This document shows positions 24,965 through 33,557 of a stretch of 64,000 nt of DNA, piece by piece. Source of the stretch: Bryobacterales bacterium. GTDB taxonomy: Bacteria; Acidobacteriota; Terriglobia; Bryobacterales; Bryobacteraceae. Within the stretch, counting starts at the first letter, position 1. Each line of letters opens with the position of its first letter. A model generated the notes under the pieces. That model saw only the letters and a program-made list of their open reading frames with translations, was not told the origin of the DNA and did no database searches. Where the stretch lies: NCBI GenBank assembly GCA_026129915.1, contig JAHCHD010000007.1:1-64000 (forward strand). The letters are read 5' to 3'. Made by a program: the position numbers and the translations under genes.

Positions 24965-26260
24965 GTGAATACCTGGCTCCAGAATCCTTCAAACCAGTGG
25001 CGGCTCCGCATCTTCGCGGTGACGTGGCTTGCCTATGCAGGCTTCTATCTCTGCCGCAAGAACCTCAGCGTGCTGATGCCCGTGCTGCAGGGTGACCTCG
25101 GGATTTCCAAGCTGGATCTGGCTAATATCGTCTTTGCCTATAGCTTGGCTTATGCGCTGGGCCAGTTTGTGACAGGGATACTGGCAGACCGTTTCGGCGC
25201 GCGCACCGTAGTTACCGCAGGACTACTGCTCTCGGTGGCGAGCAACCTGGCCATGGGCTGGAGTCCCACCGTGTTGATGCTCTTCGTGCTGGGCATGCTG
25301 AACGGGATGGGGCAGTCAGCCGGCTGGCCGGGCCTAGTGAAGAACATGGCCACATGGTTCCGGCCGGAAGAACGCGGAGTGGTGATGGCCTGGTGGACCA
25401 CGAACTATGTTCTGGGCGGGTTCATCGCTACCCTGGTGGCCACCTTCGTAATCAGCAACCCCATGCCGCTGCCGGGCGTGTCGTGGCAGCACGGCTTCTG
25501 GATTCCTTCGCTCCTTTTGTTGGGCGTTACGATCGTGTTCGCGTACTTCGCGCGCAACCGCCCCGAGGACGCAGGCCTTCCCCCAATTGTTGCTGAGGAA
25601 ATGCCGGCCTCTCCCGCCTCTGTTGATAAGTCGCGTGGCGTGATGCTGCAGGTGCTGGCCCGCCCAGCTGTTTGGATCACCGGCGTCTCTGCTTTCCTTC
25701 TGAAGGTGATTCGCTACTCCTTCCTGTTCTGGCTACCGCTCTATATGACCGATCATCTGGGCTACACCGCTGAGCGCGCCGGCTACGCTTCGTCCATCTT
25801 CGAGCTCGTTGGCTTTCTGGGCGCCCTGGTGGCTGGCTACGCATCTGACAAGCTGTTTGGCGCGCGGCGCTTTCCGGTTACCAGCATCATGATGGCGGGT
25901 TTGGCGGTAGTTTGCCTGCTGCATCCCTTTATTGCGGACCGGGGCTTACTGTGGAATCTGCTAGGGATTGCCCTTATTGGGATTATGACCTACGGCCCCG
26001 ACACCCTGATGCAGGGCGCGGCCTCGCAGGATGCGGGCGCTGGCGGCGGTGAAGCCTCCGCCGCGGGTGTCATTTGTGGCATTGCGTCGCTGGGCCAGTT
26101 AGCGTCACCCTACTTCGTCGCCCTCGCTGCTGACCGCTTTGGCTGGGATGCCCTATTCTACGTATTCGTGGCGATTGCGCTGGCGGGTTCCGTGCTCACC
26201 GCCATCTTCTGGAATTTCCGCCCCGCTCTTTCCCAGTCCCAGCGCGATCTGCCATCCTGA
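24965..26260 (+). CDS. Organophosphate:phosphate antiporter (OPA) family MFS transporter, candidate aminophosphonate carrier
   Basis: 431 residues from a GTG start, with 12 predicted membrane segments. The OPA signature is clear in the first span (WLAYAGFYLCRKNLSVLMP), the GISKLDLANIVFAYSLAYALGQF stretch and FGARTVV; the RKN region carries the basic residue that in GlpT/UhpT contacts substrate phosphate. The family exchanges organic phosphates for inorganic phosphate. Here it is followed by phnW (41 nt) and a PbfA-like gene in the same direction. This suggests it imports 2-aminoethylphosphonate or its hydroxylated form. That substrate is inference; sugar phosphate or glycerol-phosphate uptake is the alternative. 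Confidence 0.9.
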   Translation: MNTWLQNPSNQWRLRIFAVTWLAYAGFYLCRKNLSVLMPVLQGDLGISKLDLANIVFAYSLAYALGQFVTGILADRFGARTVVTAGLLLSVASNLAMGWSPTVLMLFVLGMLNGMGQSAGWPGLVKNMATWFRPEERGVVMAWWTTNYVLGGFIATLVATFVISNPMPLPGVSWQHGFWIPSLLLLGVTIVFAYFARNRPEDAGLPPIVAEEMPASPASVDKSRGVMLQVLARPAVWITGVSAFLLKVIRYSFLFWLPLYMTDHLGYTAERAGYASSIFELVGFLGALVAGYASDKLFGARRFPVTSIMMAGLAVVCLLHPFIADRGLLWNLLGIALIGIMTYGPDTLMQGAASQDAGAGGGEASAAGVICGIASLGQLASPYFVALAADRFGWDALFYVFVAIALAGSVLTAIFWNFRPALSQSQRDLPS

Positions 26261-26300
26261 AGCTTGGCCGCCACCGGGCTGGCCGCACTCACGCAACATC

Positions 26301-27419
26301 ATGGCTGACAAGTTCCTATTCACTCCCGGACCTCTCTCCACCACCGCCACCGTCAAGCAGGCTGCGCTACGCGACCTTGGCTCGCGCGACGACGAGTTCC
26401 TGTCTGTCGTTCTGGACGTGCGCCGCCGTCTGCTGGAAATGGCCGAGGCTGCCGGAGCTGGCTATGAAGCCATCCCAATGCAGGGCTCCGGCACGTTCGC
26501 CGTCGAGAGCGTGCTTGGCTCGCTGGTTCCTGAAGCAGGCAAACTGCTGGTGGTGGCGAATGGCGCATACGGCGAGCGCATGGCGAAGATCGCCAGCATG
26601 CTTCGCATTGCACATTCCAAGCTGGCGCTGCCTGAATGGGAACCTGTTTCGCTCGCGGCTATTGATGCGGCGCTGGATGCAGACCCCGCCATCACCCACC
26701 TTGGAGTGATTCATTGCGAGACCTCCACCGGCTTGCTGAATGATGTGGAATCCATTGGCGCACGCACCAATGCGCGGGGCGTCTGTCTGATTGTCGATGC
26801 CATGAGCAGCCTGGGCGGTGTGCCCCTCAACGTGCCCGCCGCGCACATCGACGCCATCGTGTCTTCCGCCAACAAGTGCGTGCAAGGGATTCCCGGGTTT
26901 GGTTTCGCCATTGTGCGCCGTTCGCTGCTGGAAGCCTCGGAAGGCGTGGCCCGCAGCCTTAGCCTCGATCTGGTTGCGCAGTGGAAGGGCCTCGAAGCCA
27001 ACGGCCAGTTTCGCTTTACGCCGCCGGTGCAGGCGCTACTCGCCTTCCATCAGGCGCTGCTGGAACTGGAAGCAGAAGGTGGAGTTGCCGCCCGCGCAGC
27101 GCGCTATGCCGGCAATCACCAGACGCTCGAAGCCTGCATGGCCGCCCTTGGCTTCGTTCCGTACCTGGACACTGGTTTCCGCAGCCACATCATTTCCGCG
27201 TATCGATATCCAGAACACCCCTCCTGGAATTTCGAGGCCTTCTACAGGGAGCTTTCCGATGAAGGCTTCGTGATCTACCCTGGCAAGGTGAGCAATGCGG
27301 ATTGCTTCCGCATTGGCACCATCGGCAACCTGTACCCACAGCACATTGAAGCGCTGTGCGCGGCCATGGAACGTGCCCTCGCCCGGATGGGTGCGGGTAC
27401 GGCTGGCGCGCCACTCTAG
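26301..27419 (+). CDS. phnW: 2-aminoethylphosphonate--pyruvate transaminase
   Basis: 372 residues from MADKFLFTPGPLSTTATVK. The open frame reaches back into the transporter gene, but the family begins at this Met. PhnW signatures are FTPGPLSTT.TVK.A, DLGSRDDEF, PMQGSGTFAVESVLGSLV, HCETSTGLLND, VDAMSSLGG, and the PLP-binding Lys in SSANKCVQGIPGFGF. The enzyme moves the amino group of 2-aminoethylphosphonate to pyruvate, giving phosphonoacetaldehyde and alanine. It sits between a transporter and a PbfA-like lyase, an arrangement expected for aminophosphonate catabolism. Neither PhnX nor PhnY/PhnA, needed to free the phosphate, is in the window. Confidence 0.94.
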   Translation: MADKFLFTPGPLSTTATVKQAALRDLGSRDDEFLSVVLDVRRRLLEMAEAAGAGYEAIPMQGSGTFAVESVLGSLVPEAGKLLVVANGAYGERMAKIASMLRIAHSKLALPEWEPVSLAAIDAALDADPAITHLGVIHCETSTGLLNDVESIGARTNARGVCLIVDAMSSLGGVPLNVPAAHIDAIVSSANKCVQGIPGFGFAIVRRSLLEASEGVARSLSLDLVAQWKGLEANGQFRFTPPVQALLAFHQALLELEAEGGVAARAARYAGNHQTLEACMAALGFVPYLDTGFRSHIISAYRYPEHPSWNFEAFYRELSDEGFVIYPGKVSNADCFRIGTIGNLYPQHIEALCAAMERALARMGAGTAGAPL

Positions 27420-27434
27420 CATCAGGAACCTACA

Positions 27435-28814
27435 ATGGCCTCAGACCACGAGCACCACCCGCTAGCCCCCCCGCAATCGGAAGGCGACGTGAACCTGTCG
27501 AGCCGCCGTGCTGCGTGGCAGCAGAAACACCTCAGCGCGGCCACCCGTCAGCAACTAGCCGAGGACGCCCGCTACTATCTGCACCAGTCTCTATCCACCC
27601 CCTGCCTTAACGTGCTGGCCAAGGCAGAGGGTAGCTGGATTGAGGACACTGAGGGTCGCCGTTTTCTCGATTTTCATGGCAACAACGTGCACCACCTTGG
27701 CTTTGGACACCCGGCCGTGATGGAAGCCGTCACCCGGCAGATGGCTACCCTGCCATTCTGCACGCGGCGCTACACCTGCGAACCTGCCATCGCGCTGGCC
27801 CGCAAGCTCGCCACGCTGGCGCCGGGTGATTTAAGCAGGGTGCTGCTGGCGCCCGGTGGTACATCCGCCATGGGCATTGCCATGAAGCTGGCGCGCGCCG
27901 CCACCGGACGCTACAAGACGATCTCACTGTGGGATGCTTTCCACGGTGCTTCCCTGGATGCCGCCTCGATTGGCGGCGAGCGCCTGTTCCGCGACCGCAT
28001 GGGGCCGCTGCTTCCGGGCGCATTGCACGCTCCGCCACCAGAGCCCCAGAACTGCCCTTTCCATTGCGGCACGCAGTGCAGCCTGCAGTGTGCCGGAATG
28101 GTGGACTACCTGATGGAGAAGGAAGGCGAGATCGGCGCGGTGGTCGTCGAGACTGTCCGTTCTACCTCAGCCATTCCGCCGGCTGGTTATCTGCGACACT
28201 TGCGTGAAGCCTGTAACCGGCACGGCGCAATGCTGATTTTCGATGAGATTCCGCACGGGCTCGGACGTACCGGACGGCTTTTCACGTTTGAGCACTTCGG
28301 CGTCCAGCCAGACATTGTCGTTCTGGGAAAGGCGCTCGGCGGCGGGATATTCCCTCTGGCGGCGGTGATTGCCCGCGAGTCTCTGAACGTGGCGGAGGAC
28401 CTTGCCCTTGGCCACTACACACACGAGAAGAACCCGGTAGCCTGCGCCGCGGCTCTGGCTGTGCTTGAGACCATCGAAGCGCAGGGCTTTCTGGAGCGGG
28501 TGTGTACCCTAGGCGAAAATACGGCGGTGGAGTTGCGCTCACTCGCAGCGCGGTGCCCTCTGATTGCTGACGTCCGTGCCCTGGGCCTGTTGCTTTGCGT
28601 GGTGCTGCGCCACCCCGCCACCGGCGAGCCAGCCTGTGATGCCGCGGAACGCATTATGTATCGCTGCCTGGAACTCGGGCTTAGCTTCAAGGTCTCCATG
28701 GGCAACGTGCTTACGCTTACGCCGCCGCTTACCATCACTGATGAAGAAATGCGCTTCGCTCTGAATGCCATCACGGTGGCCGTGAGCGAGGAGTGCAGAG
28801 CGCCTGCTCTGTAG
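27435..28814 (+). CDS. pbfA: Class III aminotransferase-fold enzyme, probable (R)-1-hydroxy-2-aminoethylphosphonate ammonia-lyase
   Basis: 459 residues, 15 nt after phnW. Class III PLP fold: DTEGRRFLDFHGNNVHHLGFGHP, LPFCTRRYT, LAPGGTSAMGIAMKLAR, SLWDAFHGASLDA, FDEIPHGLGRTG with the cofactor Asp, and the Schiff-base Lys in VLGKALGGGIFPLAA. A Cys-rich insert (CPFHCGTQCSLQC) near residues 200-215 is unusual for plain transaminases. PbfA enzymes, found beside phnW, convert (R)-1-hydroxy-2-aminoethylphosphonate to phosphonoacetaldehyde and ammonia, widening the PhnW pathway. The assignment rests on this context and on remembered family features; an omega-amino-acid transaminase is the alternative. 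Confidence 0.8.
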   Translation: MASDHEHHPLAPPQSEGDVNLSSRRAAWQQKHLSAATRQQLAEDARYYLHQSLSTPCLNVLAKAEGSWIEDTEGRRFLDFHGNNVHHLGFGHPAVMEAVTRQMATLPFCTRRYTCEPAIALARKLATLAPGDLSRVLLAPGGTSAMGIAMKLARAATGRYKTISLWDAFHGASLDAASIGGERLFRDRMGPLLPGALHAPPPEPQNCPFHCGTQCSLQCAGMVDYLMEKEGEIGAVVVETVRSTSAIPPAGYLRHLREACNRHGAMLIFDEIPHGLGRTGRLFTFEHFGVQPDIVVLGKALGGGIFPLAAVIARESLNVAEDLALGHYTHEKNPVACAAALAVLETIEAQGFLERVCTLGENTAVELRSLAARCPLIADVRALGLLLCVVLRHPATGEPACDAAERIMYRCLELGLSFKVSMGNVLTLTPPLTITDEEMRFALNAITVAVSEECRAPAL

Positions 28815-28822
28815 CGCCTTGT

Positions 28823-30367
28823 CTATAGCACTGGGCCGATTCGCCACGGGACGAACTCGCGGTGGCCGAACTGCTCGGCGGCGGTCCTGCGTCCGCTGGC
28901 CACTTCCAGCGTGAAGTCGAAGATCTCCTGGCCGATGGCTTCCACCGTGGCCGTGCCATCCATGATGCGGCCCGCGTTGACATCCATGTTGTCGCGCATG
29001 CGCTCGTACATGGGTGTGTTGGTGGCAATTTTGATTACCGGCACAATGGGGTTGCCCGACGCGCTGCCACGCCCGGTGGTGAAGGCCATCACGTTGCTTC
29101 CGCCTGAGGCAAGGCCTGTCAGGGATACCGGGTCGTAGCCCGGCGTGTTCATGAAACAGAGTCCCGGCGAGGTGATGCGCTCAGCATACTCCAGCACCTG
29201 CATCAGCGGCGAGGTGCCACTCTTGGCCACCGCGCCAAGGCTCTTCTCGAGAATGGTGGTAAGCCCGCCCTCTTTGTTCCCGGGTGAGGGGTTGTCGTCA
29301 AAGCTTCCCGTGAAGCGGTTCAAGTAGGTCTTGTAAGCACGGATGCACTGAAGCAGTTTCTCAGCCGTTTCGCGATTCCGGGAACGCCGCACCAGCAGGT
29401 GCTCTGCGCCGAAGATCTCTGGAGTCTCCGCCAGAATGGCAGACGCGCCGATGGCGGCCAGCAGGTCGCTCGCATGCCCCAACGCCGGATTGGCCGTGAT
29501 CCCGGAGAAAGAATCAGAGCCCCCGCATTGCAATCCCAGCATGATGTGCGAGGCTGGTAGCTCCCGCCGTTCCATTGCCCGGATGCGCTCGAAGTGTTCA
29601 CGCACCGCGCGCACGCCCGCCTCCACCGTTGCCCGCGTGCCGCCAGCATCCTGCAGCGTCATCGCCACGATATGTTCCGTGCGCATGGCGCCAGGGGGCA
29701 GGTACGCATCAATCTGGTTCACTTCGCAGCCCAGGCCCAGCAGGATGGCACCCGCTACATTGGGGTGGTCCAGCACGCCCGCCACTACGCGATGCAATTG
29801 CTCCGTATCGGCGCCGATGCTGTGCGCACAACCCTCGCCATGTGCGAAGGCCACCACGCCATCCACGTTGGGAGGCAGGTCATCCTTGCCAAAGGATGCC
29901 GCGATTAGCTCAGCTGCGTGCGCCGCGCAGTTGCTTGCGGCCACCACGGCCACGTAGTTGCGAGTGCCCGCGCGCCCGTCCCCGCGCAGGTACGCCTGGA
30001 TCCGGGGCAGCGGCTCCAGCGGGGTGGGGACGGCTAACTCCACATCCGGAAACTGGTAGGCCATCTCAAATTCTTCAAAGCTCAGGTTGTGGGTGTGTAC
30101 GTGGTCGCCCGGGGCAATGGCTGCTTTAGCGCGCCCGATGATCTCCGCGTAGCGCAGCACCACATCCCCCGCGGCTATCGGAGCAATCGCCAGCTTGTGC
30201 CCAATGGGAATCTGGGTGCGCGCCAGCACTTCGGCGCCGTCTGCCAATACACGCTGTCCTTGGGAGAGGTTCACCCGCGCAATGGCGACATTGTCGCGCG
30301 CGTTCAAACGAATCACCGCATTCTCCGCGGTGGCCATGGGCTGGATGCCCACCAGATTGCTGCTCAT
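28823..30367 (-). CDS. UxaA-family sugar-acid dehydratase (altronate dehydratase-like)
   Basis: 514 residues from ATG 30367, which overlaps the lactonase stop as ATGA. An N-terminal SAF domain (about 1-95: VIRLNARDNVAIARVNL, VLARTQIPIGHKLAI, GDHVHTHNL) is joined to the UxaA core: GYLRGDGRAGTRNY-like YLRGDGRAGTRNYVAVV, HGEGCAHS, GLGCEVNQ, LQCGGSDSFSGITANPALG, AETPEIFGAEHLL, NPSPGNKEGGLTTILEKSLG and TTGRGSASGNP. The family dehydrates D-altronate or D-galactarate to 2-keto-3-deoxy acids with iron. In this operon it would act on the aldonate made by the upstream dehydrogenase and lactonase, so L-fuconate or a similar acid is the likely substrate. That is inference. Confidence 0.88.
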   Translation of the reverse strand: MSSNLVGIQPMATAENAVIRLNARDNVAIARVNLSQGQRVLADGAEVLARTQIPIGHKLAIAPIAAGDVVLRYAEIIGRAKAAIAPGDHVHTHNLSFEEFEMAYQFPDVELAVPTPLEPLPRIQAYLRGDGRAGTRNYVAVVAASNCAAHAAELIAASFGKDDLPPNVDGVVAFAHGEGCAHSIGADTEQLHRVVAGVLDHPNVAGAILLGLGCEVNQIDAYLPPGAMRTEHIVAMTLQDAGGTRATVEAGVRAVREHFERIRAMERRELPASHIMLGLQCGGSDSFSGITANPALGHASDLLAAIGASAILAETPEIFGAEHLLVRRSRNRETAEKLLQCIRAYKTYLNRFTGSFDDNPSPGNKEGGLTTILEKSLGAVAKSGTSPLMQVLEYAERITSPGLCFMNTPGYDPVSLTGLASGGSNVMAFTTGRGSASGNPIVPVIKIATNTPMYERMRDNMDVNAGRIMDGTATVEAIGQEIFDFTLEVASGRRTAAEQFGHREFVPWRIGPVL

Positions 30368-31191
30368 AGGGAGTAAACCTCTTTCGCTGTGTCTCCAAAA
30401 ATTCGGGCGCGCTCGGCCGCGCTGAGCGGCGCTGCCCATTGTTCCACCGTTTCACGCCAGCGGGCATAGGTGCTAGCGGCCAGGCATACCGGCCAGTCAG
30501 ACCCAAACAGCAGCCGGGCGGGCGTGAAGGCCTCAAGCGCTGCATCCAGGTAGGGCTTCAGGTCCGCCGTCCGCCAGGTGCTCCAGTCAGCCTCCGTCAC
30601 CATTCCCGACACCTTACACCAGACGTTGGGCCGCCGGGCGAGTTCCCGCAGGTTCGCTTCCCACGGTTCGCGGACGCTCTCGCGGATGCGCGGCTTGGCT
30701 ACGTGATCCAGCACGAATCGCTGGTTTGGGAGCTTGTCCACGAAGGCGATCGCGGAGGGCAATTGCCGCTCGAAAATCAGGATGTCGTAGACCCATCCGC
30801 GCTCCGCCAGCAAGCCCGCGCCGCGCTGGAACTGAGGATTGGCAAGCGAGGTGGGGTCCGCCTCACTCTGGATAACATGCCGCAGGCCTTTCAGCTTCGT
30901 CTGGCTGGATAGCCGGTCGAGGACCGCGCCAATGTCGTCAGCGGCCAGTGGCGCCCAGCCCACCACGCCGGCAATCCACGGGTTCTCGTCCGCCAGGTCG
31001 AGCAGCCACACGGTTTCTTCCAGCGTCTGGCGTGCCTGCACCGCGATGCAGCCATCCATCTCGGCAGCCAGCAACTCAGGGCGCAGGTGATCGGGCAGGA
31101 AGTCGCGCCGCAATTGCTCCATGCCGTCGCCCAGCCAGCCATACTCGGCTGCCGTGTATTGCCAGAAGTGCTGATGGGCATCAATGCGCAT
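30364..31191 (-). CDS. Amidohydrolase-family aldonolactonase (L-fucono-/L-rhamnono-lactonase-like)
   Basis: 275 residues from MRIDAHQHFWQY. The start overlaps the aldo/keto reductase gene by 11 nt, and the stop overlaps the dehydratase start. The metal motif HQHFW opens the TIM barrel; QARQTLEETVWLLDLADEN, GLRHVIQSE, FVLDHVAKPRI and LLFGSDWPVC (metal Asp at the end of strand 8) match the COG3618 lactonase family. These enzymes hydrolyse fucono- or rhamnono-lactones to the free acids in oxidative deoxy-sugar breakdown. It sits between a predicted aldose dehydrogenase and a dehydratase, as such a pathway requires. Confidence 0.88.
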   Translation of the reverse strand: MRIDAHQHFWQYTAAEYGWLGDGMEQLRRDFLPDHLRPELLAAEMDGCIAVQARQTLEETVWLLDLADENPWIAGVVGWAPLAADDIGAVLDRLSSQTKLKGLRHVIQSEADPTSLANPQFQRGAGLLAERGWVYDILIFERQLPSAIAFVDKLPNQRFVLDHVAKPRIRESVREPWEANLRELARRPNVWCKVSGMVTEADWSTWRTADLKPYLDAALEAFTPARLLFGSDWPVCLAASTYARWRETVEQWAAPLSAAERARIFGDTAKEVYSL

Positions 31192-32158
31192 GGCGAGCCT
31201 CGCTTTCTGCCGCGAGAGGCCACCGGAAGTTGTCGTTTTCGGGCCGTCCGCAAGCCCATGCACGGTTCTTCACGGGTTCCACCAGTTGGGCGATCTCCGC
31301 CAGCAACGCCTCGCTGGCAACTCCCTCCATGGCGGCTACGTTGCTTTCGACGTGTGCTGACTTCGACATCCCCACTACGGTGGTCGCGGCACCCTGCCAG
31401 CGCAGGCAGTATTGCAGCGCGACATCCTCAATGGAGGCTCCGTGTTGCTGGCAGGAAGCAAGCACCGCGCGGGCGACCGCCTTTACCTCCGCCGGGGCAG
31501 GGTGCCAGTCTGGGGGGCCTTTCTCACTCAGCACGCGCATGTGCAGGGGCGACGCGTTAAACAAGCCGATGCCCTGCTGCTGGCAGAACGGCGCCAGCGC
31601 GGATGCAAGGTCGTCCATCAGCAGATTGTAGCGGCAATACGACATGATGGCGTCTACCGGTGCTGCTGCCGCGATGGTGTGCAGCAGCGCGACGGGAAAA
31701 CCCGTGATGCCAATGGCGCGCGCCTTGCCCTGCCGCTGGACGTCCCGCAAGGCCGGGATGGTTTCCTCGATCACCTGCATGGGGTCGCCGAATTCCACGT
31801 CATGAGCGAACAGCACATCCACGTAGTCTGTCTGCAGTCGCCCAAGCGATTCGTCTGTGCTGCGCTGCACGCGCTCCGCGGAAAAATCGAAGGTTGCCGT
31901 GTCGTAACGCCCGCACTTGGTGGTGATCACCGCTTGCTGTCGCCTCCCTTTCAGCGCCCTTCCCAGGCGTTCCTCGCTCAGCCCGCGTCCATAGTAAGGG
32001 GAGGTGTCAAAGCAGGTAATTCCCAGGTCGATGGCCCGGTGTACCGCGCGTGTACACTCGGCTTCATCGGCCACGCCGAATTCATTGCCCAGCGGCGAGG
32101 CGCCAAAACTGAGCACGGGAACGGAAATGCCGGTGTTGCCGAGAGGCTGATAGCGCAT
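31181..32158 (-). CDS. Aldo/keto reductase, probable L-fucose/aldose 1-dehydrogenase
   Basis: 325 residues from MRYQPLGNTGISVP; longer in-frame starts run into the divergent gene. The AKR tetrad is present: Asp in CFDTSPYYG, Tyr in the same motif, Lys in ITTKCG and His in VLFAHDVEF. DRxLGRLQTDYVDV-type sequence, SPLHMRVLSEKGPPDWHP and CLRWQGAATTVVGMS resemble the D-threo-aldose (L-fucose/L-galactose) dehydrogenase branch. It would oxidise a sugar to its lactone with NAD(P)+. It is the first gene of a three-gene overlapping operon with a lactonase and a UxaA-type dehydratase, which supports this over a general reductase role. Confidence 0.87.
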   Translation of the reverse strand: MRYQPLGNTGISVPVLSFGASPLGNEFGVADEAECTRAVHRAIDLGITCFDTSPYYGRGLSEERLGRALKGRRQQAVITTKCGRYDTATFDFSAERVQRSTDESLGRLQTDYVDVLFAHDVEFGDPMQVIEETIPALRDVQRQGKARAIGITGFPVALLHTIAAAAPVDAIMSYCRYNLLMDDLASALAPFCQQQGIGLFNASPLHMRVLSEKGPPDWHPAPAEVKAVARAVLASCQQHGASIEDVALQYCLRWQGAATTVVGMSKSAHVESNVAAMEGVASEALLAEIAQLVEPVKNRAWACGRPENDNFRWPLAAESEARHAH

Positions 32159-32249
32159 GGAGGTGTGCCCCTTCTGTTCCTCCATCTTACTGAACCCCAC
32201 CATCCGCGGGTCACTACGCCAAGGCCGCGAGCCAGTGTACGATACAGCC

Positions 32250-33557
32250 ATGGCTTCCTCGACGATTTCCCGCCGCAACCTCCTGGCTACCGCCGCCCCG
32301 ATGATTGTGCCCTCCAGCGTCTTTGGCTCCCAAGCCCCCAGCAACCGAATGACCATTGGTTTCATCGGTACCGGCAACAACGGCTATGGCTGGATGTCCT
32401 CCTTTCTGAAGGACGAAAGGGCGCGTGTGGTGGCTGTCTGCGATGTGAACCGTGAGGGTCCTGGCTATTGGGATAACACCATCCGCGGCTGGAAGCCCGC
32501 CCAGGAACGGGTGAATAAGCAATACGGCAATAGCGACTGCAAAGCCTACGAGGATTACCGCGAATTGCTCGCGCGCACAGACATCGACGCGGTGTACATC
32601 GCCTCCCCAGACCACTGGCACGCCATTCATGCCATCCATGCGGCGCGGGCAAAGAAGCACATCCTTTGCCAGAAGCCATTGACGACCAGCGTTGCCGAGG
32701 GCCGCGCCATGGTGAAGGCGGTCACCACATCCGGTGTTGTCTGGCAAACCGGCAGCCAGCAGCGCTCTGACTGGGCTTTTCTGCGCGCCAAGGAAGTGCT
32801 GGCTTCCGGCCAGGTAGGGCGCGTCCGCTTCGTACGCATCGGTCTTCCTGGAGGGACCCCTGACTTTGGCAAGACGGCGGACCAAACCCAGCCGCGCCCT
32901 GTTCCCGACGGCTTCCGCTACGACTGGTGGCTTGGCCCCGCGCCGCAGGCTGACTACTGCCCAGCCCGCGTGGGGGTTAATTTCCGGTGGGTGCGCGACT
33001 ACTCCGGAGGCCAGATTACTGATTGGGGCGCCCATCACATTGACTGCGCGCAGTGGCTGCTGGGCCGCGAAAACACAGGCCCCGCCATGATCCGAGACGC
33101 CCACGGCAAATGGGCAGCGCACCCCATCTACAACACGGCCACGGACTTCTACTTCGAATGCGAGTACCCGGACGGGCTGCGCTATGTGGTCTCCAGCAAC
33201 GAGCGCGGCGGCGTGCGCTTCGTGGGTACGGACGGCTGGCTCTATGTGAACCGCGGGAGGCTGGAGGCGAGTTTCCCGCTGCCGGAAGATGCGATGACCG
33301 ATGCGCAGCGCCGCGCAATGCCCAATGCCGACGACGCCCATTGCCGCAACTTCACGGATGCGTTGCTTCAGGGTGCGAAACCCGTGGCGCCGATTGAAGC
33401 AGCCCATCGCTCCATCAGCATCGCTCACCTGGCGAACATTTCCCTTTTGGTGGGGCGCAATGTCCGGTGGGATCCAAAGACGGAAACCATCCAAAACGAC
33501 AGTGCCGCCAGCGCGATGTTGCAGCGTGAGTACCGGAAGCCATACAGCCTGGCTTAG
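32250..33557 (+). CDS. Tat-exported Gfo/Idh/MocA-family oxidoreductase
   Basis: 435 residues from ATG 32250. The N-terminus is a Tat-type signal (TISRRNLLATAAPMIVP, cut near VFGSQ), after which the Rossmann fold starts with IGFIGTGNNG. The family motif CQKPLTTSVAEGRAMVKA (usual EKP Lys) and DWGAHHIDCAQWLLG, a typical GFO_IDH_MocA C-terminal motif, are clear. Secreted members are very common in Acidobacteriota and Planctomycetota; cytoplasmic relatives oxidise sugars or inositols with NAD(P), and some exported ones act as glycosidases. It is divergent from the fucose-type operon across 91 nt, so coregulation is possible. Substrate unknown. Confidence 0.9.
   Translation: MASSTISRRNLLATAAPMIVPSSVFGSQAPSNRMTIGFIGTGNNGYGWMSSFLKDERARVVAVCDVNREGPGYWDNTIRGWKPAQERVNKQYGNSDCKAYEDYRELLARTDIDAVYIASPDHWHAIHAIHAARAKKHILCQKPLTTSVAEGRAMVKAVTTSGVVWQTGSQQRSDWAFLRAKEVLASGQVGRVRFVRIGLPGGTPDFGKTADQTQPRPVPDGFRYDWWLGPAPQADYCPARVGVNFRWVRDYSGGQITDWGAHHIDCAQWLLGRENTGPAMIRDAHGKWAAHPIYNTATDFYFECEYPDGLRYVVSSNERGGVRFVGTDGWLYVNRGRLEASFPLPEDAMTDAQRRAMPNADDAHCRNFTDALLQGAKPVAPIEAAHRSISIAHLANISLLVGRNVRWDPKTETIQNDSAASAMLQREYRKPYSLA

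Follow-up and report, generated by a model that had tools for sequence, protein, structure and literature searches.

A predicted AepP-PhnW-PbfA aminophosphonate operon in an acidobacterium of the Bryobacterales, with phnX at a separate locus

The window, i.e. the whole stretch of 64,000 nucleotides analysed here, belongs to a 64.8 kb contig (C301) of a soil-type acidobacterium, the assembly of which comprises 5.28 Mb in 333 contigs and is 84.9% complete. It possesses three adjacent genes that very probably (probability about 0.9) constitute an aminophosphonate catabolic operon of an AepP-type permease, PhnW and PbfA, with PhnX encoded at a separate locus and completing the pathway. The genes are:

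24965-26260, + strand: aepP, OPA-family MFS permease, predicted importer of 2-aminoethylphosphonate (AEP) and (R)-1-hydroxy-2-aminoethylphosphonate (R-HAEP) (P0001; 431 aa, GTG start)
26301-27419, + strand: phnW, 2-aminoethylphosphonate--pyruvate transaminase (P0002; 372 aa)
27435-28814, + strand: pbfA (P0003; 459 aa; NCBIfam NF049939)

In the proposed route AepP would import AEP and probably R-HAEP. PhnW would transaminate AEP with pyruvate to phosphonoacetaldehyde, PbfA would eliminate ammonia from R-HAEP to yield the same product, and PhnX, located on contig C321, would hydrolyse it to acetaldehyde and phosphate.

The three open reading frames (24965-28814) run in one direction and are closely spaced, as described in an earlier note on this DNA. 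The gaps measure 40 nt between aepP and phnW (26261-26300) and 15 nt between phnW and pbfA (27420-27434). The genes flanking them on both sides lie on the opposite strand and belong to unrelated families. Promoter and terminator searches at the operon returned nothing above shuffle level, so we infer co-transcription of the three genes from their spacing only. Downstream of pbfA, on the opposite strand (28823-32380), are genes of the altronate/galactarate dehydratase family and of an amidohydrolase, besides an ORF for a putative aldo/keto reductase, judged by its looks. The dehydratase and amidohydrolase genes were considered as operon members and rejected on account of their strand; they look like a separate sugar-acid module.

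P0002 exceeds the cut-offs of three curated PhnW models: NCBIfam NF010006 (470.9 bits, cut-off 296), TIGR02326 (453.8 bits, cut-off 400.8) and a third one (439 bits, cut-off 361). Its closest solved structure is the AEP transaminase 9kk8, and it has the PLP lysine, in place of which chain 9kka, a match in other respects, carries Met. P0003 reaches 653.6 bits against the NF049939 cut-off of 525; the next-best model is the non-specific "aspartate aminotransferase family" PRK06082 (629.6 bits), and other families score 286 bits or less. Judged by these matches, the two proteins are identified as PhnW and PbfA, and the reading of the latter as a PbfA-like PLP lyase, not an ordinary omega-transaminase, is borne out. 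The statement that PbfA does the same as PhnW is correct for the product, phosphonoacetaldehyde, and incorrect for the reaction, PbfA being an ammonia-lyase (PMC8154272). Five related genomes possess copies of pbfA with 58-66% identity, and three of these have aepP as well as phnX next to pbfA. The copy of G011 (L041:9263-10587), a genome without a phnX match, has a frame change near residue 367, which reflects either decay of the gene or a fault in the assembly.

Neither phnX nor phnY or phnA was seen beside the aepP-phnW-pbfA cluster, in agreement with the earlier note. A genome-wide search located phnX on contig C321 (7985-8731; 327.5 bits, cut-off 220), and the notion that PhnX is missing from the genome was discarded. 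The predicted protein aligns near full length with solved phosphonoacetaldehyde hydrolases and carries both DWAGT with the Asp nucleophile and RPMGxxKxxH with the Schiff-base Lys, here RPMGAHKRDH; by these sequence features it is identified as PhnX, and it would complete the pathway from its distant locus. Of the two sources of phosphate release suggested previously, genes elsewhere in the genome thus holds and an unknown enzyme is not needed. A PhnA route was rejected, its one match (25 bits) being the NPP phosphodiesterase-family gene beside phnX.

According to the contig ends, the aepP operon and phnX are at least ~33 kb apart. The same split is found in the same-genus genome G002, with aepP-phnW on C127 and phnX plus the NPP gene on C147. 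Other related genomes keep aepP, phnX and pbfA or phnW together: G018 possesses an uninterrupted aepP-phnW-phnX-pbfA, G045 a contiguous phnX-aepP-phnW, G073 aepP-phnX with pbfA alongside, and G110 has aepP, pbfA and phnX within 12 kb. The split is therefore a rearrangement of a known cluster and not a new pathway.

P0001 belongs to the OPA family of MFS carriers. Its best NCBIfam relatives are the PgtP-type model TIGR00881 (238 bits), UhpC (184 bits) and GlpT (174 bits), all under the curated cut-offs; GlpT and UhpT would require 633 and 497 bits, against 174 and 120 obtained. In a tree of 83 proteins, which has long branches, P0001 falls into a 75-member clade (support 98/99) together with the transporters of Granulicella mallensis and Kriegella aquimaris, and apart from GlpT, UhpT and UhpC, which form a branch of their own (support 100/99). 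These two species are the taxa named by Murphy et al. 2021 (PMC8316502) through which the orthology of P0001 to AepP runs, and the G. mallensis strain in the tree may differ from theirs. P0001 is, by sequence, a member of the AepP-type group. The transporter of G002 is 81-82% identical to it. A homologue on a Pseudomonas aeruginosa plasmid (35.8%), without an annotated adjacent phnW, was left out of the comparisons.

Genetic work on P. putida BIRD-1 identified AepP, an OPA-family permease sharing 28% identity with GlpT, as the AEP carrier that the strain requires in order to grow with AEP as its source of nitrogen; AepP was also reported beside phnWAY or phnWX in G. mallensis (Acidobacteria) and K. 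aquimaris (Bacteroidetes) (PMC8316502). This work was extended in PMC9311074. Like AepP, P0001 is a carrier of OPA type whose gene accompanies phnW and the breakdown of phosphonates. Unlike the reported AepP loci, the operon of the window combines phnW with pbfA and lacks phnX. PbfA accompanies 13.5% of the phnWX clusters surveyed in PMC8154272. As in those clusters, PhnW and PbfA would feed phosphonoacetaldehyde to PhnX, whereas phnX is unlinked here, a split that the related genome of the genus shares.

The neighbourhood survey consisted of a scan of named genomes, from which 80 transporter relatives were fetched and inspected within 6 kb for phnW, phnX, pbfA, the TIGR03364 FAD oxidoreductase and Phn-HD. 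Such phosphonate-catabolism genes accompany 69 of the 80 loci, and phnW, whose pairing with an OPA gene in other genomes had been put forward as a check, accompanies 42. Flavobacteriaceae appear to possess phnA-phnY-phnW-aepP operons, in which phnA and phnY were recognised by eye. Among 121 genomes (the host's own and its relatives), close relatives of P0001 are found in 10 and phnX in 20; phnX occurs in 9/10 of the transporter-bearing genomes vs 11/111 of those without (Fisher p ~1e-7, with relatedness ignored). The proposal that the OPA protein imports aminophosphonates is supported by the tree and by these linked loci, as a predicted function, and is not new given AepP (PMC8316502). Entry of AEP and R-HAEP through P0001, as well as its specificity, direction and coupling ion, would follow those of AepP on grounds of homology and gene linkage.

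P0001 might be a usual OPA antiporter, exchanging sugar phosphate or glycerol-3-phosphate for Pi and standing beside phnW by chance, but this is very unlikely. Its best match in the PDB is indeed GlpT (1pw4), with glucose-6-phosphate exchangers also among the nearest structures, and in the alignment the P0001 group keeps Y38, Y42, R45, Y76 and R269 (GlpT numbering), so that the two phosphate-binding arginines of GlpT are conserved. The position outside the GlpT/UhpT/UhpC branch speaks against an antiporter of this kind, and so do the phosphonate genes beside 69 of its 80 relatives and six residues that are common to all three E. coli proteins (sugar-phosphate carriers and sensor of the OPA family) and altered across the clade. 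K80 is replaced by Gln in 75 of the 76 fetched sequences and H165 by Tyr in 69, the corresponding residues of P0001 being Gln67 and Tyr148; N162 (N162T), N166, Y266 (Y266K) and Y393 (Y393S) are changed as well. In GlpT, K80 and H165 may themselves touch the phosphate. R45 and R269 would still hold the phosphonate group of the substrate, and loss of the pocket lysine would suit a zwitterionic, amino-bearing compound; K80Q and H165Y are, however, compatible with some other organophosphorus substrate as well. AepP has been described as keeping the Pi-binding residues of GlpT and not the glycerol-contacting ones (PMC8316502). The signature of Gln at K80 and Tyr at H165 could help to annotate AepP-type carriers, which at present come out close to transporters of glycerol-3-phosphate or phosphoglycerate when general models are used.

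Enzymes of the PhnW type can also have a part in biosynthesis, and the operon might accordingly serve phosphonate biosynthesis or export, with PhnW reversed to make AEP. This is extremely unlikely: PEP mutase has no match in the genome, a result that is not absolute at 84.9% completeness; PbfA and PhnX are, in addition, catabolic. A refinement of the catabolic reading, tentative although far less remote, is that P0001 imports a broad range of aminophosphonates, in a module that serves R-HAEP no less than AEP. The transporter occurs with pbfA and phnX and without phnW in G073 and G110, and elsewhere with cassettes of the TIGR03364 FAD oxidoreductase and phnX (with or without Phn-HD), likewise lacking phnW; AEP clusters encode FAD enzymes that oxidise N-methyl-AEP (PMC10590968). 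On the other hand, phnW is retained in the window operon and at 42/80 loci, and AepP of P. putida is proven for AEP (PMC8316502). Since the carrier accompanies pbfA+phnX or FAD+phnX cassettes in five genomes with no PhnW match (G008, G067, G072, G073 and G110), the AepP-type group is suggested to accept several aminophosphonates.

A conserved cassette of an OPA carrier, the TIGR03364 FAD oxidoreductase, phnX and the Phn-HD oxygenase was observed in Acidobacteriota at L084, L086, L096, L144, L164 and L173. The PhnW models have no match in the genomes of L084, L086 and L096, and the OPA gene of L096 is of a distant type.

The predicted catabolic operon of AepP, PhnW and PbfA is one more example of a known module and adds little new, because AepP, PbfA and the FAD enzymes feeding the same aminophosphonate pathway (PMC10590968) have already been described. 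It confirms that OPA-type, i.e. ATP-independent, uptake of aminophosphonates is widespread in Acidobacteriota. A binding protein of PhnD or AepX type was considered as alternative importer; the sole PF12974 match of the genome is part of a frame of 913 aa, which exceeds the size of a plain binding protein, and was set aside. PF13343 has three matches (70.7 bits, 53.4 bits and one under the cut-off), and an additional ABC importer in the genome is possible.

The NPP phosphodiesterase-family gene (PF01663, 106 bits) is located directly upstream of phnX on C321 (L036:6942-7841), and its product has a signal-peptide-like start, judged by eye. NPP-family genes adjoin aepP, phnX, pbfA or Phn-HD in several named acidobacteria as well as in G002, G008 and G073. 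In Bacteroidota, lipoprotein-like versions are found near aepP in Arenibacter and Fulvivirga, and a truncated copy in Kriegella. Besides L036, the loci recorded with such a gene are L082, L038, L085, L144, L148, L150 and L158-L161. In total, 19 of the 80 AepP loci possess an NPP gene. An exclusive tie of this gene to phosphonates was rejected because 11 of the 17 related genomes with NPP lack phnX. The word "phosphodiesterase" is absent from two papers on ancillary phosphonate enzymes. A secreted NPP that acts outside the cytoplasm on phosphonate esters, e.g. on lipids or glycans with AEP head groups, would fit these loci, with AepP importing the freed aminophosphonate. This is a tentative hypothesis, less likely than not; if true, the pathway would lead all the way from phosphonate esters to phosphate. 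In both genomes of the genus a large protein, without a match in Pfam and NCBIfam, is encoded beside the NPP gene and phnX (L036:3339-6848, a 1169-aa frame, and L082:5795-8353).
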